From positions 1-33,786 of IMG/VR virus record IMGVR_UViG_3300028025_000012: DNA of 33,786 nucleotides; one strand, written 5' to 3'. Source of the DNA: a virus. The translations under genes and the position numbers were made by a program. The notes below the pieces were generated by a model. That model was not told where the DNA came from and made no database searches. It worked only from the letters and a program-made list of their open reading frames with translations. Shown one piece after another: positions 1 to 33,786 of this stretch; positions within the stretch are counted from its first letter, which is position 1; each line of letters begins with the position of its first letter.

Positions 1-127
1 TTGGAAATTATATATCAATTCGTTTTGTGCTAACGTTGTTGTACCAGGAATAATCCACATACGACTATACAAGGGTTCTTTCTCAGTCTCAATATCCATC
101 GTTAGCTGCGTTACATCACCGAACCCA
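1..127. repeat. Terminal direct repeat, left copy (contig circularisation overlap)
   Basis: Bases 1-127 are identical to 33660-33786. The tail gene on the minus strand reads in frame through the join, so the repeat is a redundant overlap from cutting a circle. A length of exactly 127 is also a common maximum k-mer of short-read assemblers, which favours an assembly overlap over biological packaging ends. Confidence 0.95.
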
Positions 128-690
128 TAAGAATTAATCTGTTCGTGTGCTCTTGCTATTTCTTTTAGGTCATCTAATATCAGTGCGTAATTAACTTCGT
201 TCACCGATGTTGGTAATGTTAATCCTGACACTGGTAATACGCAGTTATTGTAGTCAAATGGTTGTTCTATTGTGATGTTAAGAGTCCATCCTGCTAATAA
301 GGTCTCATATCTTTCTAAAAAAGGTTCTACTGGACTTCCCCATAATGGTTCATAATCTATACTGAACCCACCAAATGTGGCTGTATAAGACTGATATAGA
401 ATAGTCCACACATCTTTTACTATCTCCAACGTGTCAGACATTACATCTTCCTGATTGGATAGGTCATTATTTATAATATCACATATAATAATTGAGAAAT
501 TATAGTCTATTCTGTTTTGTGCGAACACTGTTTGTGCAGGTACAACGTACATTTTTGTGTAGACAGGCTCCTGTTTTGACTCAATATCCATCGTTAATTG
601 GGTAATATCACCATACCCAAACGAATTAATCTGAGGGTGGTGGTACGCAATACCACTTAAATCCTGTATAACTTGCTTATAATTGACCAT
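1..690 (-). CDS. Duplicated tail-completion-like protein, 5' part (continues at 33659-33342)
   Basis: This is the first 230 codons of a 335-residue protein. Its start codon is at 690 and its reading frame leaves base 1 and continues in frame at 33659, ending at 33342. Residues about 3-154 and about 166-306 are two diverged copies of one domain. Shared landmarks are QINSxGxGDxTQLTMDIE, IINNDLSNQ, FLERxETLLxGWTLNI and QPFDYNxCVLP. Single-domain proteins of this look, about 150 residues long, are common in Bacteroidota phages near neck and tail genes, and a tail-terminator or tail-completion role is inferred. It follows the tail chaperone with a 33-bp gap and precedes the collagen-like fibre. 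The domain duplication is the unusual feature. The call of one gene is firm; the function is tentative. Confidence 0.8.
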   Translation of the reverse strand, partial: MVNYKQVIQDLSGIAYHHPQINSFGYGDITQLTMDIESKQEPVYTKMYVVPAQTVFAQNRIDYNFSIIICDIINNDLSNQEDVMSDTLEIVKDVWTILYQSYTATFGGFSIDYEPLWGSPVEPFLERYETLLAGWTLNITIEQPFDYNNCVLPVSGLTLPTSVNEVNYALILDDLKEIARAHEQINSYGFGDVTQLTMDIETEKEPLYSRMWIIPGTTTLAQNELIYNFQ

Positions 691-723: not shown

Positions 724-1017
724 TTATACTGCACCTTGTGCTTGTCTTGTTAATCTATTTATTTCTTCATCATAATTTATAAGGAAAGACAATTGGTTCA
801 GTGCTTCCATCACATTACTATCGTAGACTATTTGATGTTTCGTAAAATCGTTTCCAGATAGTCGGTTGACAACAACGTACCATCCGTACGTCTTTTGAAA
901 AGAATTTGGATTATCATCTTTCTCATACTCCACATCAGTTTTATTTTCTGAATCGTCGATAGCTTCTTGATCAAATACAGCTGGGAATAACCTGAAAATC
1001 TCTTTTCTAATTGAGTA
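724..1017 (-). CDS. -1 frame extension of the tail assembly chaperone
   Basis: This is the C-terminal 97 residues reached if ribosomes slip back one base at the T7 run (minus strand, 1023-1017) in the upstream chaperone gene. The frame is open from before the slip site to the stop at 724, and a 69-residue stretch at its end would start at an internal ATG (933). After the shift the protein continues YSIRKEIFRLFPAVF and ends with a GWYVVVNRLSGNDFTKH / NQLSFLINYDEE block that looks like a genuine phage tail-chaperone C-terminus. The fused product would be 174 + 97 = 271 residues. The alternative is a single-base assembly or mutational indel in one continuous gene. It is unlikely to be an independently translated gene. 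Confidence 0.7.
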   Translation of the reverse strand, partial: YSIRKEIFRLFPAVFDQEAIDDSENKTDVEYEKDDNPNSFQKTYGWYVVVNRLSGNDFTKHQIVYDSNVMEALNQLSFLINYDEEINRLTRQAQGAV

Positions 1018-1538
1018 AAAAAAGTCTGTGCTCCGAGCACGTACCTCACGTTTAGTTTCTTCTTAAATAATTCTGCACGTTTCTTCATCGTCTTGACGTC
1101 GTACTTCTCAATATCAAAATCGTGTTCACCTCTTTCTTCCGTAATTGGTCTGTACATAATTGCAGTTAGGTAGTGCAGTGAGTCCAGTAACTCATCAGGT
1201 TTTTTAGAACTGAGTGTGTCTAAGTCCACAAACTCCGCAAACGATAGGTCCTTCCAGTTAGGGAAGAAACCATAATTAATTCCATCCAATATAAACCTAT
1301 CTTCAAACTTAGGTGCAGTTGGTATTAGATTTAATATTTCACTTGCAAGAAAGTTTATCTCTTGATAGTCATGTTCTAATAGTTCATCTTGTTTAGCACC
1401 AGTTAATAAACTAATAAGTTTAGCTGCGAAGTATTGGTCCTCAAATAAGTCCTGCATCTTATATATCTTAACGTATTGTTCTATCGTTAGATATTCAGGT
1501 AGTTTATATTCTACCTCATTCATTTTGAATTTAAACAT
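828..1538 (-). CDS. Tail assembly chaperone (zero-frame product)
   Basis: This 236-residue protein starts with an ATG at 1538, eleven bases after the large terminase stop. Residues 1-174 are acidic and helical in character, like the tail assembly chaperones that lambda-type siphoviruses make before tape-measure folding (the G/GT system). The segment KKRAELFKKKLNVRYVLGAQTFF ends exactly at the T7 slip site. Beyond it the zero frame turns into a basic, low-plausibility tail (rich in K, I, L and R), while the -1 frame looks like real protein. This is the expected layout for a G/GT pair. It is unusual that the gene lies directly after TerL and about 14 kb (along the transcript) before the tape measure. 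Family call from context and composition. Confidence 0.65.
   Translation of the reverse strand: MFKFKMNEVEYKLPEYLTIEQYVKIYKMQDLFEDQYFAAKLISLLTGAKQDELLEHDYQEINFLASEILNLIPTAPKFEDRFILDGINYGFFPNWKDLSFAEFVDLDTLSSKKPDELLDSLHYLTAIMYRPITEERGEHDFDIEKYDVKTMKKRAELFKKKLNVRYVLGAQTFFTQLEKRFSGYSQLYLIKKLSTIQKIKLMWSMRKMIIQILFKRRTDGTLLSTDYLETILRNIK
1017..1023 (-). promoter_or_regulatory. Putative -1 ribosomal slippery heptamer (T TTT TTT)
   Basis: On the minus strand the zero-frame codons are ACT-TTT-TTT-ACT. The heptamer T-TTT-TTT fits the X-XXY-YYZ slippery rule, and slipping by -1 continues with TAC into the long -1 frame that ends at 724. The signal is seen in the sequence; actual slippage is inferred. 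Confidence 0.6.
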
Positions 1539-1548
1539 ATATATATAT

Positions 1549-2883
1549 TTATTTTATAAAGGAAAGACTGTACTTCCCTGTTGATTTTTGGTTCTTTATG
1601 TGTGGGTACATACCCATCATTATCGCGTCACTTATATCGGGTGACCTTCCTAATATTCTTTTCTGTTCGTCTTTTGATATTACTGCTATCTTACCATCCT
1701 TGTCTACATCTTTTAGTTTAACTGATAATAGTTCTTGTGTGAGGTCATCTATAAGTGATGGGTCATTTATATTAATTGATATTAATCCCTGCTTAAACAT
1801 CTCACTCAACCGAACGTAACACTGACTCTTTAAGTTACTGAAGTTCTGTTCATGTAGTGCTTTACTATTGTTCACGAAATTAAATCCCCTCAACTGATCA
1901 CCAACACCTGAACCAATACCATCAGTGTCCACAATAACATTTGTAGGGTGCACACCATAAGTTGACATTAATAATTTTATTTCTTCCGATAGTTGTACGG
2001 TAGATAGTTTCCTAAACACAAATATCTCAGTGATGACTGTACCAACCCACATAACAATTACAGACCTATCCTCACCAAATCTACTTACGTCCACACTTAG
2101 TCTTTTAACATCAGTAGGGTTTGGTGCTGCACGATATACTGATTGTGTTATGGTGTCCATACTAAACAGTGCTGATATATCATTTGTATATCGCCAGTTA
2201 CCCATTAATAATCTTTCACGTTGTTGGAAAGGTAACTCTCTTAAAGTTTGTATGTAGCTTTCGGGGAGGTGCGGGTTGTCTAATGGTAAAGAAGCGATAA
2301 AGACCTTGTTGCTATCTAATGTACCTTGTTCATGTGGTAGATAAAATCTTGTGAATAACCAGTTCTGTCCTGGATTTGATGTAAGTAATATCTTAGGTAT
2401 TAAATTATATTCGTTTAGTTTAAATCTTATACGTGACTTTAATATTGAAAAGGTTGTCTCACTTATCTGTACAGCTTCATCCACATATACTGCCGTTAAT
2501 TCTAACCCGCCTAAATTATCTTTATTAACATCCGATGGTTTGTCTTCAAGGTCCTTCAATATTATTTCTGAACCGTTCTGAAACGTAAGCACATTTGATT
2601 GTGCGTTATAAGAATAATGTGTGTCCGCAGTAAGACCCATAAACTTAGGTCCCAATACCTCCATTAGCGTTTTAAAGGTGGTTTGTTTGAGTGTTGATAG
2701 TACGGTTCTACCTATCAGTGTTCTTATACCAGGGTACTTTAAACACAACGTTACAATCCAAATACAACCTAACGTACTTTTAGATCCACCGGCACTACCA
2801 CCGAAACATATCTCGTTGGTCACATCATCAGTCAAATACCTCCACGCAATAGATTGTTTAGGTAGTAAGTTTATCTCAGCCAT
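1549..2883 (-). CDS. terL: Large terminase subunit (ATPase/nuclease)
   Basis: This 444-residue packaging motor drives DNA into the procapsid and cuts it. N-terminal ATPase: Walker A at residues 28-37 (GGSAGGSKST, with a Gly/Ser-rich loop rather than the usual GRGSGKS form), Walker B AVYVDE with D135/E136, and a coupling motif TSNPG at 168-172. C-terminal RNase H-like nuclease: candidate acidic residues D265 (SVDVSRFG), D319/D321 (VIVDTDG) and D416/D419 (SPDISDA). The length is normal for the family. It overlaps the glycosyltransferase stop by one base. It is unusual to find a glycosyltransferase and a 56-residue gene between TerS and TerL. Confidence 0.95.
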   Translation of the reverse strand: MAEINLLPKQSIAWRYLTDDVTNEICFGGSAGGSKSTLGCIWIVTLCLKYPGIRTLIGRTVLSTLKQTTFKTLMEVLGPKFMGLTADTHYSYNAQSNVLTFQNGSEIILKDLEDKPSDVNKDNLGGLELTAVYVDEAVQISETTFSILKSRIRFKLNEYNLIPKILLTSNPGQNWLFTRFYLPHEQGTLDSNKVFIASLPLDNPHLPESYIQTLRELPFQQRERLLMGNWRYTNDISALFSMDTITQSVYRAAPNPTDVKRLSVDVSRFGEDRSVIVMWVGTVITEIFVFRKLSTVQLSEEIKLLMSTYGVHPTNVIVDTDGIGSGVGDQLRGFNFVNNSKALHEQNFSNLKSQCYVRLSEMFKQGLISININDPSLIDDLTQELLSVKLKDVDKDGKIAVISKDEQKRILGRSPDISDAIMMGMYPHIKNQKSTGKYSLSFIK

Positions 2884-17710: not shown

Positions 17711-20700
17711 TTATAATGTTGAAAGGTCTTTAAGACGTGCTTGTTTATTCATTTGTGAAACCATATCTTTTTCTACCACGTAAGTTTTAACCACTATTGG
17801 TGCTTGTTCTTGTGCTGGATTGGATAATATTGGATTGTCTTGTCTTGTTGTTAATAGATTGGAATTAAAAGATGTTCCACCACCCGCTTGATTCATCATA
17901 CTTAACATCGGACCGAATAGTGAAACTGCCCCACGTGTCATAATAGCCTCACCCTGCTCCGCTTCAATTAAAGTTCCACCTTGTGCGTGTCTTCTTCCAC
18001 CGATCATACCACCTTTTTCCATACCTCTTGTAGTTGATGATGTTGATTGTCCTGAACCTCCACTATCACTACTTCCTATTTCTTTTAACTTACCAATACC
18101 CGACGCAATAATTGTTGCGATTGAAAGTCCTGCTGCTACTTTAGCTTTTACAGCGTAACCTGCTGCGATTGGAACACCTGCTGGACCTAATGGTGCAACT
18201 GACGCACTAAACGCAATAATAGCACGTTGAGTGTCAACAATAATACGTGCAATAGACACACCTGCTTCAACAATAGCTGCTGCAACCTGTAAATCTTTAC
18301 TTCTCTTATCTAACGCACCTAACAATCCTACTAAGTTCTGACCGATTTGGATTGTCATGTCCGCACTTGCACGTTTGCTATCTACCTCTAACTTATCTAA
18401 CTCTAATTGTTTTGCAGTGTTCTTTTCTGCTGATGCTGTTCTTCTATTATTTAAATCAACAATTTGATTCTCATACGTCTCTCGTGTAATAATTTTAGCA
18501 CCGAGATTTGCTTTAAGTTTTTCTTCTTCTTGATTATATCTAACTACGTCATTATCATACTCCTCTTGATAGGCTTTTCTAATATCAACGAAGTACTTTT
18601 CATATATTCCTTTAAGTCCTTTATTACCAAAAAAGAAGTCACCAAATACCTCATTAAACTTAGTTTTATCATCAATACGTTGTTGGTCTGTTGCTAATTC
18701 TTGTTCAACGTTCTTTAAACGTAATTCTTTTTCCCTTTCGTAAGCCTCTTGTTCTTGTTTAAATCTTTTTTGGAAGAACTTGTCCCTGATGTTTAATAAA
18801 TCCCTGTCAGTTTGTATTTGCAAATTCTTTACCGCTTCATCAAACTCCTCTTGTGTTTTGAATTGTTCTTGTAAAGCTATCTTGTCATAATATAACTGAT
18901 TTGACCTTGCTGCTAATTCACGTTCTTCTTCATCATCTATTGCTGCTACTCTAAGTTCTTCAGCTTTCTTTAATTTCTCTTGTAATACTTTATTGTCGTC
19001 ATTTAAAGCAGACTCAATCTTCTTACTATTTTCTGCTTTTAGTAATTCAACTTGAAAATATGTCAACTTATCGTGATCGGTAATTAACTTTCTTTTTAAG
19101 TCTAATAATTTTTGTAATACATCCCTTCTTGTATTTTCTTTATCTATTTCTAACTGTATTTGTGCGTCCAAATCCTTCATAAGATTTTGGAAAGCACTAT
19201 CATCTTTAGCACCTGCACCTGTCTTCTTTTCTTCTTTTGGTTTGAAGCCTGTTTCTAAAAGTCCTGCTTGTGCAATAAAATTACTTGCACGATCCCTAAT
19301 TCGTTGTGCTTCTTCAAGAAGTTTTGCACCTCTTTCTTCAAGTTCACCTTGTCTACCTAAAAGTCTATCAATTGCGTTTGCTTTACCTCTTGATTGGAAT
19401 AATCCTCTATCAAAACTAAAAAATCCTTTTTCTTGTGCAGTAATTGCTTCAGCAGCTTTTTGTGCGGCTATTCTAAATAACTCTTGTGCTTCAGCCCTTA
19501 ATCCAGTAGCTTTAATATAATTTTCTGTATTGTCTTTATATAGTTTTTCAGCTTCAGCTAAGGTTTCTGCTTTACCAATTGTTCCACCTAATATTTCATT
19601 ATACTTATCTAACGCTACCTTTTTATCTATCGCACCTTTTTTTGCTTGTTGAAAAGCAACACCTACCTCTATAATTTTATTCCTTGCTTCTTCAGCTGCG
19701 GTAGCGTTTTTAATTAATGTTGTTTTAAACGTTTTAGTTGCTTCTTCCGCTGCGTTAGTTGCAGTTAAATAATCATATAGTTTAACACCTAAAAGAGCAA
19801 GACCACCAATAAAAGCGGTAACAACTACAAATGTTGATGTTAATATTGTACCTAAAGCCCTTAAAGCAGCAGTAAGAAAGCCTGTTGACGCAGCTGCTGC
19901 TTCATTTGCTACAGCTAAATTACCTGCTGCTACGGCTGCTGCACCATTTGCTTCAACTACACCTAATGTTGCTGCTTGTTGTAAAATTTCTGATTTAGTT
20001 AATTCTACTGTTGTTCCATCAGCAAGAACCATCGTAACAATATTTCTTTTATAAGACGCATCAACAGCACCTAAAGCAAGTGCAGTTGTTTCAATAGTAG
20101 CTGCTAATTTTCTACCTGATAAAACGTTCAATTCTTGTGCTGCTATATTTTCTACATTAGCAACTATATTTTCTTCTTGTGCTACTGTATTTGCTTTTAC
20201 CGCTACTGTTGAAGCTACTGTTGCTGCAGCACCTGCTGTTGTTGCTTCCGCTAAACCACTTACTGCTCCTGACGTCGCTTCTACAGTTGCTTTTACATTT
20301 TTACCACCAACATCATCTAATCCTTTATTTAAATCAAAAAGATTATCAGAAATATCTGAAAAATCATCAAAAGTTTCTTTAAGTTGGAACCTTAAATCTT
20401 TTAGTGAAAATCCTGAGAACGTTTTTAATAGTGCAATAGCACCATTTATTTGTGACGCAAAATCACCAATAGGACCAGGTAATAATTGAAGTGATGTAAA
20501 TAAGTCACCTGACTTTACTTTTGTTCTTGCTAAACCATCTTGTACTTCACCTAATTTTGATGACAACAACTGAAACTCAGCAGTACCTTCCTTAGTTTTT
20601 CTAAGTTCACCAAGTAATATTTTAGATTGTTTCTGTAAGTTGAGTGTCTTATCAATAACGACGTCTATTGGTTTCCCATCAATATCGTATTGTATTTGTA

Positions 20701-20800
20701 GACCCCTACCTAAATCCTTTAACTGACCTAATTTCTGTACGGCACTATCTACCTGATCGGTCTTTACTTCGGTTTCAATTATTAATTTTTTACTCGCCAT
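17711..20800 (-). CDS. Tail tape measure protein
   Basis: This 1029-residue protein sets tail length. By the usual ~0.15 nm per residue it predicts a tail of about 150 nm. It has an Ala/Val-rich helical N-half, a membrane-like segment at about 311-341 (AALRALGTILTSTFVVVTAF), a long charged coiled coil at about 560-800 (KLKKAEELRVAAIDDEEERE and similar), and a second hydrophobic stretch near 880-940. The Gly/Ser-rich C-terminal region includes GGMIGGRRHAQGGTLIEAEQ. The presence of hydrophobic spans suggests a part in DNA passage through the host membrane. The 67-aa gene before it overlaps its start by 11 bases. Confidence 0.9.
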   Translation of the reverse strand: MASKKLIIETEVKTDQVDSAVQKLGQLKDLGRGLQIQYDIDGKPIDVVIDKTLNLQKQSKILLGELRKTKEGTAEFQLLSSKLGEVQDGLARTKVKSGDLFTSLQLLPGPIGDFASQINGAIALLKTFSGFSLKDLRFQLKETFDDFSDISDNLFDLNKGLDDVGGKNVKATVEATSGAVSGLAEATTAGAAATVASTVAVKANTVAQEENIVANVENIAAQELNVLSGRKLAATIETTALALGAVDASYKRNIVTMVLADGTTVELTKSEILQQAATLGVVEANGAAAVAAGNLAVANEAAAASTGFLTAALRALGTILTSTFVVVTAFIGGLALLGVKLYDYLTATNAAEEATKTFKTTLIKNATAAEEARNKIIEVGVAFQQAKKGAIDKKVALDKYNEILGGTIGKAETLAEAEKLYKDNTENYIKATGLRAEAQELFRIAAQKAAEAITAQEKGFFSFDRGLFQSRGKANAIDRLLGRQGELEERGAKLLEEAQRIRDRASNFIAQAGLLETGFKPKEEKKTGAGAKDDSAFQNLMKDLDAQIQLEIDKENTRRDVLQKLLDLKRKLITDHDKLTYFQVELLKAENSKKIESALNDDNKVLQEKLKKAEELRVAAIDDEEERELAARSNQLYYDKIALQEQFKTQEEFDEAVKNLQIQTDRDLLNIRDKFFQKRFKQEQEAYEREKELRLKNVEQELATDQQRIDDKTKFNEVFGDFFFGNKGLKGIYEKYFVDIRKAYQEEYDNDVVRYNQEEEKLKANLGAKIITRETYENQIVDLNNRRTASAEKNTAKQLELDKLEVDSKRASADMTIQIGQNLVGLLGALDKRSKDLQVAAAIVEAGVSIARIIVDTQRAIIAFSASVAPLGPAGVPIAAGYAVKAKVAAGLSIATIIASGIGKLKEIGSSDSGGSGQSTSSTTRGMEKGGMIGGRRHAQGGTLIEAEQGEAIMTRGAVSLFGPMLSMMNQAGGGTSFNSNLLTTRQDNPILSNPAQEQAPIVVKTYVVEKDMVSQMNKQARLKDLSTL

Positions 20801-21003: not shown

Positions 21004-22641
21004 TTAAGGACAAACAACTACGCTGCTTGTATTTCCTGTATTACTTACATTACCAACCCATTTATTACTTAAATTGCTTGTTGGTGCCCAACAATATTTG
21101 TTACCATTACCTGTAAATGTTGTTGTCAATCCTAAATCTGTAAAGAATTGAGTTACCGCGTTTGGTGATGATGTAGCAGCGTACACTGGTGTTTGTGGGT
21201 CAATATCAAAATTATTACACGCATCTAACGCTGAACCATAATCAGGTCCAATATAAAACTCATTACCTACAACAGTTGCAGTTGGGGTTGGTGTACTCGT
21301 TGGTGGAACACCTGTTGCTGTTGGCGTAGGAGTTGGTGTTGCAGTTGGTGGAACACCTGTTGCAGTCGGAGTTGGCGTTGGCGTACTTGTTGGAGGAACA
21401 CCAGTCGCTGTTGGTGTCGGAGTAGGAGTTTGAGTCACCACAATATCAGTAGGACATGTTCCTGCACTACAACTAAATCCTGATGCAATACTTATTGTCA
21501 TTCCATTATAACCAAACTCTTGTATTACACCGCCTGTATAATCCATACATCTATATCTAATACCGTTTGTTGCAAACACTTCACCTACTTGAACACTATT
21601 ACAATTATTATAAATAATACCTGCTGTTACAGGTTCAGGTCCACTTGTTGCACCTGTTACATTTAACTCAACACATACACAAGGTACTGATGGTGTTGAT
21701 GTTATAGTAGGAGTTGGAGTCGCAGTTCCAGTCGGAGTTGGTGTTGGAGTACTTGTTGGAGGAACACCTGTCGCAGTCGGAGTTGGAGTCGGTGTACTTC
21801 CTGATGGTACGTAACCTGTACAATCATAACCTGTAAGACAGTTACCAACACCTGGAATTACTATATAACTTGTGTCAATTCCACTTGTTCCTTCGGGAAA
21901 CCACTGAGGTACACCGAGAACTGTTTGGATACACTGTTTGTATGTACCTGGTCCAACTGTGAAAGCTCTTATTGTTCTTACACCATTACAATCATTATAG
22001 TCTAATGACGCAATCGTTCCACCTTCAGGAGGCGGTAAAGTGCTACCTGTTACTACAATCTCATAACAATAACAAGGATTTTGTGGTGTTGGTGTTGGAC
22101 CAGGAGTCGCAGTTGGAGTCGGCGTAGGGGTCGGAGTTGGAGTTGTTATATTAACATTTACTGCTGAACATATCTTATATAAACACTTCTCAGCAATAAA
22201 TCTAAACTCAAAAAAATACGTACCACTACTAAAACTTGCTAAACCATACTGTGCAGGTGTTATTGTGAACGTGTCACCAGTCCACGAACCTGTTGTTGGT
22301 AGAGTTGGTGGTATGTATGTCGTACCTCTTGTGTCCACAACCCTCCACGTGTTCATGTAAGTTTGGTTTGGAACCTGACAGTGTACGGATAAGTATGGAA
22401 CATTTATTATAGGTGTTATTATTGGACCTTTAAACGGATCAGTACCATTAAAATTAAAAGAACCATTATAAGTAAAGGTAATACTACTTGATGAAACGGT
22501 TGTAGCACTGAAACTTGTTACAGTACCTGAAATACACCTATTATTAATGTCGTGCACAATTTCCACGTCATATTCAGTCATCTCGTAATTTGGATATACG
22601 AAGTTTTGATTATTTACCTGTCCTACATATTGTCTACTCAT
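21004..22641 (-). CDS. Pro/Thr-linked, Cys-rich modular surface protein
   Basis: A 545-residue bead-on-string protein. An N-terminal β domain (1-165) is followed by a Pro/Thr linker (166-188), a Cys domain (190-281), a linker (282-318), a second Cys domain (319-403), a linker (404-456) and a C-terminal β domain (457-545). The two Cys domains are related: each starts CxC, then has a YNxCN motif (DYNDCNGV, IYNNCNSV) and later Cys. The linkers repeat TPTPTPTATGVPPTS. It is probably a flexible virion appendage or receptor-binding protein. Each mature domain has few charges, typical of exposed structures, and the linkers are candidate O-glycan carriers. Confidence 0.7.
   Translation of the reverse strand: MSRQYVGQVNNQNFVYPNYEMTEYDVEIVHDINNRCISGTVTSFSATTVSSSSITFTYNGSFNFNGTDPFKGPIITPIINVPYLSVHCQVPNQTYMNTWRVVDTRGTTYIPPTLPTTGSWTGDTFTITPAQYGLASFSSGTYFFEFRFIAEKCLYKICSAVNVNITTPTPTPTPTPTATPGPTPTPQNPCYCYEIVVTGSTLPPPEGGTIASLDYNDCNGVRTIRAFTVGPGTYKQCIQTVLGVPQWFPEGTSGIDTSYIVIPGVGNCLTGYDCTGYVPSGSTPTPTPTATGVPPTSTPTPTPTGTATPTPTITSTPSVPCVCVELNVTGATSGPEPVTAGIIYNNCNSVQVGEVFATNGIRYRCMDYTGGVIQEFGYNGMTISIASGFSCSAGTCPTDIVVTQTPTPTPTATGVPPTSTPTPTPTATGVPPTATPTPTPTATGVPPTSTPTPTATVVGNEFYIGPDYGSALDACNNFDIDPQTPVYAATSSPNAVTQFFTDLGLTTTFTGNGNKYCWAPTSNLSNKWVGNVSNTGNTSSVVVCP
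21274..22146 (-). repeat. Three Pro/Thr linker repeat blocks
   Basis: DNA encoding linker 3 (21274-21432), linker 2 (21688-21798) and linker 1 (22078-22146). In each, GTTGG/GTCGG-type units on the plus strand encode TPTPTPTATGVPP repeats. The units are near-identical in protein but vary at third codon positions, pointing to older duplications kept by selection. Related short tracts occur at 24947-25003 and 30376-30413. Confidence 0.8.
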
Positions 22642-22679: not shown

Positions 22680-24392
22680 TTAGTTAATTTGAGACCAACT
22701 TGACCCATTATGATAAAACAAGTTAGAACCACTCACAGCTAATGAACCTACACTTCCTGTTGGTAAAGTTGATTGTTCTGCTAAAGTCATTACACTTGTA
22801 ATATTAGCTGAACCTGTAACATATACAGAACCAGTTACATTTAATGAACCTGTAATTTCTAAACTATTTGTAAATTGTGGTACAGAACCTGTTATATTAT
22901 TATTCTTTCTAAAAAAAACAGAAGTACCATCATCAATCGTAAAGTCATTTTTTGTTTGTGAAAATAAAATTCTTTTAGCAATTGAACCAGAAATATTTAC
23001 CATACGTAAATATGATGCACCAGCGTCACCTGATTGTAAATTCAATTCATTATTTGGACCACTTAAATAATTTTGTGTTAATGTATTACCTGTTTTATTT
23101 TGAAGTATAATATCTGTAAAAGTGTTAGAACCTGTTATTCTAAGTGGTCCCTCAATATTTACTGAACCACTAACATTTAACGAACCTGTTATTTGGGTAT
23201 TATTTGAAATAGTTGTTGCTGCGTTTAATCTTAATGTTTGATTTGCAACAGTCCCATTCATAACACCATAAATCAATCCTTCATTTTGATAATTTGTTCT
23301 TAATAAACTATCAATAACTAATGTGTTATTTACTGTACCTGTTAAGTTTGTACCAGCGTAATATCCTAAACCAATATTATTTGACCCTGTCATATTTGCA
23401 AACGCACCACCTCCAATAATTGTATTATTTGAACCAGTAAGAACATTCTGCATCGCGTAACTACCTATTGCAATATTTTCAGCACCACTTTCTAATCTGT
23501 TTAATGTAAATCTCGGACCAATACCCATATTATTAAATCCGTCACCTCTATAATTTGCTAACGTTGAAGTACCAATAGCCATTGTTGATGAACCAGTTGC
23601 CATTAAACCTAAATTGGAAAAACCAATTGAAGTATTTTCATTTCCAGTTCTTAAATTACCTAAATTACTTGCACCAATCGCGGTATTAAATGAACCACTG
23701 ATATTATTAGCTAAATTTGACGCACCAATAGCTGTATTTGAACTACCTACTGAATTATTGGTTAAATTTGAACGACCAATTGCTGTATTAGCTGTGCCAG
23801 TTGCACCTACACCAGTAAAGAGTAACGAGTTATTTCCTACTCTTGTATTTGTAACACTTGTACTACCTGCTGCCTTTCCAACAACAACACTATTAAAAGT
23901 ACTATCTGACGTGGAAGTAATAGAACCACTAACAGCAACTGAACCTGATATATCAACTCTATTTGCTAATGTAGTTAAAGTATTTCTGCTGAACGCAATC
24001 GTGCCGAAGTCTGAACCGCTACCAAAATATAAACTATCTTCTTGTAATGATGAAATTATAGTTCCAGTAGAGTTTTGAAATGTTATACCACCACCATTTA
24101 AAGCTGTTATGTCATTTGATATTGTATTACGTAAGGTTAATGAACCTGTTATACCAACGTTATTTGTTGTGTTCCATACGCTACCTGTTAGTGCAAATAA
24201 ACTATCACCACTTGTCCCTGATGAACCAGCAGCACCTGAACTTCCACTCGTTCCTGAGGTTCCTGACGCACCGATAATATTTTCTCTTGTTACTTTAAAA
24301 GTGGTTGTTTGACCACTATTGTTCATTACCAAATACGCACCTGCTGTGTTTCCCGTAAATAAAGGTAATTCTGAAATTTTTGTATTAGCCAT
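22680..24392 (-). CDS. Tail/head fibre with YadA-head-like repeats
   Basis: This 570-residue protein has an N-terminal attachment domain (MANTKISELPLFTGNTAGAY), a short collagen-like tract (GTSGTSGSSGAAGSSGTSG, about 44-62), and GDSLFALTGSVWNTTN. Many copies of a 14-15-residue repeat of the type GSxNTAIGxSNLxNN follow (about 175-330), as in the β-roll heads of YadA-type trimeric adhesins. It then has a TGSL-rich β region and a C-terminal PTGSVGSLAVSGSNLFYHNG motif also found in the 961-aa fibre. It is probably a trimeric fibre. The large plus-strand frame inside it is a shadow of repeat composition. Confidence 0.75.
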   Translation of the reverse strand: MANTKISELPLFTGNTAGAYLVMNNSGQTTTFKVTRENIIGASGTSGTSGSSGAAGSSGTSGDSLFALTGSVWNTTNNVGITGSLTLRNTISNDITALNGGGITFQNSTGTIISSLQEDSLYFGSGSDFGTIAFSRNTLTTLANRVDISGSVAVSGSITSTSDSTFNSVVVGKAAGSTSVTNTRVGNNSLLFTGVGATGTANTAIGRSNLTNNSVGSSNTAIGASNLANNISGSFNTAIGASNLGNLRTGNENTSIGFSNLGLMATGSSTMAIGTSTLANYRGDGFNNMGIGPRFTLNRLESGAENIAIGSYAMQNVLTGSNNTIIGGGAFANMTGSNNIGLGYYAGTNLTGTVNNTLVIDSLLRTNYQNEGLIYGVMNGTVANQTLRLNAATTISNNTQITGSLNVSGSVNIEGPLRITGSNTFTDIILQNKTGNTLTQNYLSGPNNELNLQSGDAGASYLRMVNISGSIAKRILFSQTKNDFTIDDGTSVFFRKNNNITGSVPQFTNSLEITGSLNVTGSVYVTGSANITSVMTLAEQSTLPTGSVGSLAVSGSNLFYHNGSSWSQIN

Positions 24393-30440: not shown

Positions 30441-33326
30441 TTATATTACTTGTGTCCACGCACCGTTATAGAAAAATAAATTGGAACCACTCACCGCTAA
30501 GTCACCAATATTTCCTGCTGGTAATGGGTTTTGTGGTGTCAAATTCATTTTTTCTGTTACGTTAATTGAACCTGTTATTGTAGTGTCACTTACAAATGTT
30601 AATGGGTTATTGTCATTTTTATATATAAATGAATCTCTTCCTTCAGTACCTATTGAAAATAAATTACTATAATCAGTACCATTGAATAAAATATTATTAA
30701 AATTACCTAAAATAAAGTTACCTGTACCACCTGTAAATTGAGGTGATGTTCCAATATAAGTATTAAAACTACCACTTTTTAAAGCACCGCCTGAACCAAT
30801 AAAAGTATTGTTACTACCACTTCTAAAAGTAAGAGTATTACCACCAACAACAGTTAAATTAACACTATCAGCAGTTACACCAAATGGTGTATTTACCTGG
30901 TCCATATTACAGTTACCACCTAATAATAATTTACCACTACTTTCTTTTTTGTATAAAGCGTTACGATTAAAATAGTCAGTAATTCTTGCAGCATCATTAC
31001 CATCATCCAATAACAACGAACCACTATTCATTCTTAATGAACCTGTTAATTGTTGTGTGCCACCAATTGAACCTGTTGTGATTAATCCATTTCTATCTGA
31101 ACTAACAATTGCCACACCATTTAATGTTAATGAACCTGATATATTAACTGAACCTGACAAGATTGTATTATTACTATTATCTACTTCAATTGCGTTTCTT
31201 CTATCACCTGCACCTGTACCATTACCAACAACAAATATCGTATTACCTGTGATTGATTTGTTCCACTTACCAAATACAGCCATACCATCAATAGTTTGAC
31301 GTGGATTGATTGAAAGGTTATTACCATATACAATTGAACTAAATACATCAGTATTAGAACCTGTTGCGTCCATATTAACGATATTGTTAATACCACCTAA
31401 CATATTTGTACTAAATGACCTTGCAGTGTTTGTTGCAGGGTTACCACCAAATTGAACGTGGTTACTAAAACCACCAATAATGTTTTGGTTAAAGTTAGTA
31501 TTATTGTTTGAACCTGTTTGAAAAAATGAGTTTGTTACAAATGTATTTTGACCGAATATAATATTACCAGCAGCAGATATTGATGAACTAACATTATTAA
31601 ATGTTATATTACCAACAAAATTGTTAGAACTAATGTTTGATTGACGTGCTACATTAATACTACCTGTTAATAAATTGGTATTTTGATTTATTGTTACGAC
31701 GTTATTATTAAAATTACTTGCGTAAAAAAGTGAACCTGATTGTGAATTGACTGTAACATTACTATAAATAACATTATTTTGAATTTGTGTATTAACACTT
31801 CCAGTAATAAGATTTATTGTCAACAAACCATTCAATTGATTATTTAATATTGTTGGTCTTAATAATGAACCTGTATTTAATGTTGGTATTGTTGAAACAA
31901 TATTATTACCACCTAAATAACCATATGACCCAGCAAAAGGTGTTGGTATTGTATTGTTCCTAAATGGATTGAATATAATATTATTAGAACCTGATATAAC
32001 GATTGAACCTGTTTGAGTTGCAATAATCGCAGGTCCACCATTTAATAATAAGTTAGATTGTGAAACTGGTGTTGATGATGTTATATTCAATTGAACTGAA
32101 CCACTTAATCTTGCTTCCGATACTAAGTTTAATAAACCATTATTAATTGTGTTAGTAATTAATGAACCTGATATAATTGTGTTAGGTAATATTAATGAAC
32201 CGCTTATAGCTTGTGTTGAAGTGTATGAACCTGTATTAACAAATCCTAACTCCGCACCTGTCTCATTTACCCACTGACTTGAACCTGAACGATAAACCAA
32301 TAGGTCACCATTCACTGGACTTGTAATATCCACGTCGTGAAGTTCCGATAATTCGTAACCATTATCCACGCTAATATAAGCTGAACCATTATTTAATTGT
32401 GGTCTTAATACTTGACCTAATCTTACTTCGTGATATGGTGCTGGTGGTATTACATTTGTATATTGACCTGATGATGATAAGTATAACATTTGTCCTGCGG
32501 TCATCCCATCAGTATTAATTCCAATTACTGTACCTTGTGCTACTATATTTGCAAAAGCGTTTGGTGCAACATCCGCAGTCAACATACCTAATGTGTTTGC
32601 TGAGTTTGCGTCATCAGTCCAACTTGCAGTGTCAAATAATGGATTATCACCATTCGCACCTACTATTCTAACTATCGTACCTTTTGTTAATGTACCTGCG
32701 TTATTATTCTTACCATAAACTACTAAGTCAAATGATATTGATGATGTTACTGCGTTTGTTATTGAACCTGATATACCACCTGTTACACTTAATGAACCTG
32801 TTATTTGTACATCATTTGTTGTAGCCCAAAACGATCCTGTTTGTGCAAATAAACTATCGCCACTTGTACCTGACGAACCTGAGGTTCCACTTGAACCTGA
32901 AACACCTGATGTTCCTGATGAACCATTTACACCGCTACTTCCTGACGTTCCTGAACTACCTGAACTTCCTGTTCCACCTGATGTTCCACTTGAACCTGAT
33001 GAACCTGAGGTGCCACTACTTCCATTTGAACCTGAACTACCTGATGTTCCAGCAGAACCTGACGAACCTGAGGTCCCACTTGATCCTGCCGTACCACTTG
33101 AACCACTCGTTCCTGAGGTACCATTTGTTCCGTTTGTGATTGGAACGTTGTTTATAAAAAATGAACCTGAGATATTCACCTCAGTGAAACTCATTTGTAA
33201 TGGACTATTATCTCCATCACCTGTTTGTATTGTTTGTAATGTATTGGTTAAACCTTGTGTGCTATCGGTCATTTTTAAAAGACCTTGATAGCTACTACTT
33301 ACATATTGATTTGTTAATTGACCCAT
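30441..33326 (-). CDS. Collagen-like fibre, 961 aa
   Basis: A virion fibre with an N-terminal domain (1-65), then 31 Gly-X-Y triplets (66-158) made almost only of GSS, GTS and GTA/GSN, with no proline. GDSLFAQTGSFWATTNDVQI links to a β domain ending VRLGQVLRPQLNNGSAYISV. A LHDVDITSPVNGDLLVYRSG motif follows, then long Asn-rich β-helix repeats (about 430-760). The C-terminus PAGNIGDLAVSGSNLFFYNG is shared with the 570-aa fibre. Trimerisation is expected from the Gly-X-Y tract and C-terminal domain. It probably mediates attachment. Confidence 0.8.
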   Translation of the reverse strand: MGQLTNQYVSSSYQGLLKMTDSTQGLTNTLQTIQTGDGDNSPLQMSFTEVNISGSFFINNVPITNGTNGTSGTSGSSGTAGSSGTSGSSGSAGTSGSSGSNGSSGTSGSSGSSGTSGGTGSSGSSGTSGSSGVNGSSGTSGVSGSSGTSGSSGTSGDSLFAQTGSFWATTNDVQITGSLSVTGGISGSITNAVTSSISFDLVVYGKNNNAGTLTKGTIVRIVGANGDNPLFDTASWTDDANSANTLGMLTADVAPNAFANIVAQGTVIGINTDGMTAGQMLYLSSSGQYTNVIPPAPYHEVRLGQVLRPQLNNGSAYISVDNGYELSELHDVDITSPVNGDLLVYRSGSSQWVNETGAELGFVNTGSYTSTQAISGSLILPNTIISGSLITNTINNGLLNLVSEARLSGSVQLNITSSTPVSQSNLLLNGGPAIIATQTGSIVISGSNNIIFNPFRNNTIPTPFAGSYGYLGGNNIVSTIPTLNTGSLLRPTILNNQLNGLLTINLITGSVNTQIQNNVIYSNVTVNSQSGSLFYASNFNNNVVTINQNTNLLTGSINVARQSNISSNNFVGNITFNNVSSSISAAGNIIFGQNTFVTNSFFQTGSNNNTNFNQNIIGGFSNHVQFGGNPATNTARSFSTNMLGGINNIVNMDATGSNTDVFSSIVYGNNLSINPRQTIDGMAVFGKWNKSITGNTIFVVGNGTGAGDRRNAIEVDNSNNTILSGSVNISGSLTLNGVAIVSSDRNGLITTGSIGGTQQLTGSLRMNSGSLLLDDGNDAARITDYFNRNALYKKESSGKLLLGGNCNMDQVNTPFGVTADSVNLTVVGGNTLTFRSGSNNTFIGSGGALKSGSFNTYIGTSPQFTGGTGNFILGNFNNILFNGTDYSNLFSIGTEGRDSFIYKNDNNPLTFVSDTTITGSINVTEKMNLTPQNPLPAGNIGDLAVSGSNLFFYNGAWTQVI
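32856..33131 (-). repeat. Collagen-like Gly-X-Y repeat tract
   Basis: On the plus strand a near-continuous run of ACCTGA(A/T)GTTCC-type units encodes 31 triplets. X and Y are almost always Ser, Thr or Ala, proline is absent, and third codon positions vary. A shorter copy of the same type lies in the 570-aa fibre gene at about 24207-24263. Confidence 0.8.
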
Positions 33327-33341
33327 ATTAATATTTTTGTT

Positions 33342-33786
33342 TTATACTTTTCTCCATACAGTTGATATTGTGTTCCATAACTGATCCAATTCGTACCACT
33401 TCTTATTTGTTACTACGAAAGGTAATTCAGGTAACACACACCTGTTATAATCAAATGGTTGTGTAACTTGTATATTCAACGTCCACCCACCCAATAAGGT
33501 TTCAAACCTTTCAAGGAAGGGATCACATGTTGCGTTCCAATTCAACTCATACTCACTCAAATAAAGAATCGTGAATATGTCATTACAAATTTCAAGACCA
33601 TCACTCATCACATCACGTTGATTTGATAAGTCATTATTAATTATATCTGTTATTACTATTTGGAAATTATATATCAATTCGTTTTGTGCTAACGTTGTTG
33701 TACCAGGAATAATCCACATACGACTATACAAGGGTTCTTTCTCAGTCTCAATATCCATCGTTAGCTGCGTTACATCACCGAACCCA
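33342..33786 (-). CDS. Duplicated tail-completion-like protein, 3' part (continues from 1-690)
   Basis: This segment holds the C-terminal 105 codons (33659-33342) of the 335-residue protein whose first 230 codons lie at 690-1. Bases 33660-33786 repeat codons already in 1-127. It contains most of the second domain copy (IINNDLSNQRDVMSDGLEIC, FLERFETLLGGWTLNI, QPFDYNRCVLP) and a short C-terminal tail (ELDQLWNTISTVWRKV). The stop lies 15 bases before the collagen-like fibre start. Confidence 0.8.
   Translation of the reverse strand, partial: GFGDVTQLTMDIETEKEPLYSRMWIIPGTTTLAQNELIYNFQIVITDIINNDLSNQRDVMSDGLEICNDIFTILYLSEYELNWNATCDPFLERFETLLGGWTLNIQVTQPFDYNRCVLPELPFVVTNKKWYELDQLWNTISTVWRKV
33660..33786. 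repeat. Terminal direct repeat, right copy
   Basis: Identical to bases 1-127. Removing one copy gives a closed circle of about 33,659 bp. See the left copy for interpretation. Confidence 0.95.

Follow-up and report, generated by a model that had tools for sequence, protein, structure and literature searches.

A probable programmed -1 frameshift, with dual coding downstream of the slip site, in a tail-assembly-chaperone-like gene of Bacteroidota phages

The gene that directly follows the terminase large subunit (TerL) gene in the virus record IMGVR_UViG_3300028025_000012 very probably uses a programmed -1 frameshift, most likely ribosomal, to produce a short and a long isoform of a tail-assembly-chaperone-like protein. 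Slippage at U_UUU_UUU would allow one gene to encode both products. Most ribosomes presumably keep the zero frame, yielding a 236-aa protein with an N-terminal domain and a basic 62-aa tail as the predominant form, while a fraction would move back one base and make a 271-aa protein in which the same N-terminal domain is followed by a 97-aa C-terminal domain. Comparison of sequences across two clades establishes that the frames are offset, that the heptamer is in phase and that both downstream frames are real.

The window, by which we mean the whole stretch of 33,786 bases that was analyzed, is AT-rich and carries a direct terminal repeat of 127 bases (1-127 = 33660-33786), and the record is therefore a circularly complete map (circular permutation). 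The features relevant to this study are listed below, where clade 1 is the clade of the window and clade 2 is about 30% identical to it.

828..1538, minus strand: zero-frame open reading frame (ORF) for the short, G-like isoform of 236 aa, made up of the N-terminal domain (1-174) and the basic 62-residue tail
1017..1538, minus strand: N-terminal domain of 174 aa, common to both isoforms (AlphaFold2 pLDDT 89)
1017..1023, minus strand: slippery heptamer T_TTT_TTT, in phase, invariant in 103/103 clade-1 and 65/65 clade-2 loci
724..1017, minus strand: -1 frame extension of 97 codons and a stop (YSIRKEIFRLFP...QAQGAV), the C-terminal domain of the long, GT-like isoform of 271 aa
828..1016, minus strand: dual-coding overlap, 62 zero-frame codons and a stop lying over the -1 frame, both apparently selected
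1549..2883, minus strand: TerL, directly upstream of the frameshift gene
1..690 and 33342..33659, minus strand: downstream neighbor gene with two tandem copies of a phrog_30964-type domain, 335 aa on the circular map
17711..20800, minus strand: probable tape measure protein of 1029 aa, long and helical with hydrophobic segments, assigned from reading of the sequence

The zero frame at the site reads ...CAG ACT TTT TTT ACT..., with the T7 at 1023..1017 of the minus strand in the phase X_XXY_YYZ. After a -1 slip, residues 1-174 continue into a further 97 codons with a stop at 726..724, for a total of 271 aa. The initial annotation had described the same ACT-TTT-TTT-ACT frame, the T7 at 1017-1023, the junction to 97 codons ending at 724 and products of 236 and 271 aa; its ORF reading agrees with ours and all of its coordinates and lengths were correct. 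The neighbor gene, cut at both record ends (690..1 and 33659..33342), forms a single 335-aa ORF; related viral contigs encode proteins of the same length class (335-339 aa), and the phrog_30964-type domain that is paired here is single in gp41 of Nonlabens phage P12024S and in a Galbibacter prophage. The minus strand also encodes low-complexity, virion-like proteins, with collagen-like GTSGSSG repeats at 30441-33326 and 22680-24392 and PTPTPTATG repeats at 21004-22641.

The T7 motif alone is not beyond chance, since TTTTTTT occurs 51 times in the window as compared to 36 +/- 9 times in shuffles, the genome is AT-rich, and two other genes on the same strand contain an in-phase T7. Conservation of the motif together with the offset, however, does exceed chance. 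Viral contigs were scanned with each of the two parts, N and C, and with alignments, resulting in 103 distinct clade-1 loci, and the only loci lacking the C part were those on contigs ending there. In 103/103 loci the C part is offset by -1 from the N part, and the junction heptamer is an in-phase TTTTTTT in every one of them, within a full T-run of T7 (n = 15, window included), T9 (n = 87) or T10 (n = 1). Clade 2, found by a scan with the Galbibacter sequence, has the -1 offset and an in-phase T7 inside a T9 or T10 in all 65 distinct loci. All 49 non-redundant relatives use TTTTTT for the Phe-Phe pair at the site; elsewhere in the same proteins such pairs read TTCTTT in 35 of 47 cases and 27% of other Phe codons are TTC, so that an invariant TTTTTT has a log10 P of about -13 from codon usage when the sequences are treated as independent. 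Total run lengths across the 103 and 65 loci are 7, 9 or 10, never 8; the lack of T8 might hint at polymerase slippage, but we put this reading aside, as the flanking codons probably account for it.

A homopolymer error in sequencing or assembly could split a single continuous gene in this manner, homopolymers being error-prone and the homologues from Duneviridae being continuous. The relatives refute this explanation, the chance of which we consider negligible: the 103 and 65 distinct loci, which come from many metagenomes, all have the same offset, as do an isolate genome and a cultured phage, and the downstream zero frame is itself kept stop-free. On this comparative evidence an assembly error is excluded.

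More distant relatives carry the same arrangement. Four loci in Bacteroidota bacterial genomes, one of them from the isolate Galbibacter pacificus CAA-3 (Flavobacteriaceae), encode relatives of 28-32% identity with the same slip, and two flavobacterial prophages keep the in-phase T-TTT-TTT and the -1 offset in the same place. In the cultured phage P12024S, gp38 lies directly after TerL with the site CTT TTT TTT TAT, and its -1 frame leads into the ORF annotated as gp39; we read these two hypothetical proteins (JQ823122, 23136-23830) as a single frameshifted gene. Matches to phrog_32199 were found for P12024S gp38 and the Galbibacter protein, and a weak one for the window protein.

The separate annotation of gp39 is what might be expected of two independent, overlapping genes, the -1 ORF being translated from its own start. 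This is very improbable. In 49/49 relatives, the -1 frame contains no ATG, GTG or TTG between its upstream stop and a point 20 codons beyond the slip, so that the C domain as a whole cannot be initiated separately; the slip is exactly where the -1 frame starts to be conserved; and the fusion is one continuous protein in Duneviridae. The homologue in these phages (23T, FPSV-F7, laban6-1, Ingeline_1) is a single ORF of 293-301 aa without the slip site. Profile comparison (hhalign) found it colinear with the fusion (94.7% probability, E 5.9e-8, 164 columns) from midway through the N domain, across the junction and over the C domain. The two domains are thus parts of a single protein, and the fused protein appears to be real.

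These comparisons bear out what the initial annotation had claimed of a programmed -1 frameshift at the T7 and of a -1 frame that is real protein, a conserved C domain; its proposal to look among homologues for both frames and for the T7 found both conserved in two clades. It had also named an uninterrupted homologue as a ground for refutation. Such a homologue exists in Duneviridae and lacks the slip site, but it is distant and colinear and supports the fused reading. Elsewhere in that group, the homologue of Flavobacterium phage 6H (KC959568, 10352-10927) stops at 191 aa with different junction bases, while the near-identical phages 23T and FPSV-F7 have one 293-aa ORF; 6H is either a variant or a sequencing error. 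Flavobacterium phage 11b and Cellulophaga phi10:1, the nearest cultured phages by TerL, were set aside as they have the portal, not the frameshift gene, after TerL.

The basic zero-frame tail had been dismissed as implausible at the outset, a judgment that the relatives overturn in both clades. After the slip, every clade-1 locus that is not truncated keeps the zero frame open for 62-72 codons, and every complete clade-2 locus for 56-87 codons. The overlap contains 0 stops in 2940 zero-frame codons (49 non-redundant clade-1 loci), whereas the corresponding frame has 8.9% stops in the N domain and 10.9% past the zero-frame stop; clade 2 has 0 stops in its first 1220 codons, versus 11%. With random synonymous recoding of the -1 frame, the zero frame stayed open for a mean of 15 codons, giving the observed length a P of 0.0075 per sequence; P was 0.08 when the codons of each sequence were shuffled among themselves, a test weakened by the bias that these codons already have. 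The open zero-frame length is by itself not significant in P12024S (25 codons) and other single distant members.

Synonymous codon identity between clade-1 pairs was 73% in the overlap (51% expected), 58% in the N domain (48% expected) and 49% past the zero-frame stop (46% expected), with the constraint lying mainly over the overlap and stopping where the zero frame stops. Clade 2 gave 0.68 for the overlap (0.48 expected) and 0.55 for the N domain (0.46 expected). Residue similarity in the zero frame (mean BLOSUM62) was 2.8 versus 1.4 in simulations forbidding stops alone, the matching N-domain control being 2.3 versus 1.9. All of these selection statistics come from related sequences and are not independent trials, but N-domain synonymous sites are near saturation and the two clades agree.

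Since the zero frame is kept stop-free in both clades and synonymous codons are constrained over the overlap, both frames appear to be under selection, and the short product would carry its own selected C-terminal tail, which is strongly basic (net +8 to +15). We lean towards the view that the slip site chooses between two different C-terminal domains with the same coding nucleotides. The -1 domain, uninterrupted in Duneviridae, would be the older, and the basic zero-frame tail of 56-87 residues would have been overprinted on it and would now serve the short isoform alone as a functional domain under selection. The gene would then provide two isoforms with alternative C-terminal domains from the same DNA, both selected, and a natural case of overprinting in which the older frame can be identified and for which cultured material exists (P12024S and the Galbibacter pacificus prophage).

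It is highly likely that ribosomes, and not RNA polymerase, do the slipping, because the T7 members, the window included, keep exactly the in-phase heptamer. Were the slippage transcriptional, RNA polymerase would add a base on the T-run, and the extended mRNA would be translated without a ribosomal shift. Runs of T9-T10 are long enough for this in some bacterial systems, and T9 or T10 is present in 88/103 clade-1 and 65/65 clade-2 loci; an RNA stimulator was not seen, pseudoknot-free RNA folding around the site giving no signal on either side of the slip. The window and 14 other distinct loci, however, have only T7, short for polymerase slippage and always in the T_TTT_TTT register that is a ribosomal requirement, which makes transcriptional slippage improbable as the general explanation, while for the T9-T10 members both kinds of slippage are possible. 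A Shine-Dalgarno-like sequence occurs in 26/49 relatives; the GGAG upstream of the site is present in the window and is not general. Known phage frameshift cases do not always have a stimulatory RNA element (PMC3091744).

The protein probably acts as a tail assembly chaperone, as its architecture, the frameshift and the position of the gene suggest. Among phage genes, those for tail assembly chaperones are the best known for this arrangement, and two isoforms made by frameshifting within the tail module are their signature (PMC5009743; PMC12846349), on which the assignment is based. By analogy with lambda gpG/gpGT, the shared domain would coat the tape measure and the extra domain of the long form would recruit tail tube subunits. 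The proposal of the initial annotation thus holds as to frameshift architecture and gene position, but not as to resemblance: hhalign comparisons with lambda G, HK97 gp13 and P2 E found nothing, and Pfam, PHROGs and PDB sequence searches of both parts found no named family. The best chaperone fold match, HK97 gp13 (2ob9), had an insignificant E of 3.3, and the match of a single member to Phage_TAC_19 (E 0.12) was not significant either. The AlphaFold2 model of the N domain matches only unnamed viral proteins, P12024S gp38 among them, and the C part alone was poorly modeled (pLDDT 59).

The gene order is TerL, frameshift gene, phrog_30964 protein. As the initial annotation had noticed, the gene is next to TerL and not to the tape measure gene, an order common to the relatives, whereas a chaperone gene would be expected close upstream of the tape measure gene. 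The probable tape measure of the window, for which no family match was found, is about 13.6 kb downstream across the circular join. The zero-frame tail likewise departs from the short chaperone pattern (5-6 codons in lambda and P2), with 56-87 codons in the two clades and 25 in P12024S.

A real programmed frameshift could also serve some other protein that needs two isoforms, such as a neck or packaging protein, and the constant place directly after TerL and the lack of detected homology to known chaperones would fit such a protein. We regard this as unlikely, as the genes downstream include neck- or tail-completion-like and tape measure families, and chaperones are the class best known for the arrangement. 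In P12024S and the Galbibacter prophage, phrog_29822 comes next after the phrog_30964 protein, the P12024S copy weakly resembling HK97 gp10 / neck. Tape measure candidates that match TMP families lie further on, five genes downstream of the frameshift gene in the Galbibacter prophage. In Cellulophaga phage Ingeline, the Duneviridae homologue is between neck genes and tape measure, three genes before the annotated tape measure. If a chaperone role is accepted, a large group of Bacteroidota phages, most of them uncultured, would be added to those with frameshift-encoded tail-chaperone-like genes; where the genes of this group are annotated, it is as a single hypothetical protein or as two.

We found no report of the frameshift gene in the part of the published literature that was surveyed, and a similarly long overlap may be known elsewhere. 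Among close comparisons, the phrog_32199 family of P12024S has a homologous gene with the same slip site in the same place after TerL, gp39 being the rest of the fusion, but differs in its annotation as two hypothetical proteins and in a tail of only 25 codons. The proteins of Flavobacterium phage 23T, of laban6-1 and of Cellulophaga phage Ingeline are colinear with the fusion protein but are each one continuous ORF without a slip site.

As in lambda gpG/gpGT, slippage by -1 at a heptamer extends an N domain common to both products with a C domain, and a tail module lies downstream. In contrast to lambda, the slip is on T_TTT_TTT in place of GGGAAAG, the gene adjoins TerL, and homology is not detectable; the lambda zero frame ends 18 bases past the heptamer, stop included, for a tail of 5 codons versus 62 here. 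P2 E / E+E' resembles the window gene in its T-rich heptamer, slipping on TTTTTTG with no RNA structure reported (PMC3091744), but it lies beside the tape measure gene and not TerL, and its zero-frame tail has 6 codons, ending 21 bases past the heptamer, stop included. Before the zero-frame stop, the -1 frame is open for 21 codons in lambda, 12 in P2 and 17 in HK97, as compared to 78 here, and it is this long dual coding that sets the window family apart from all three.
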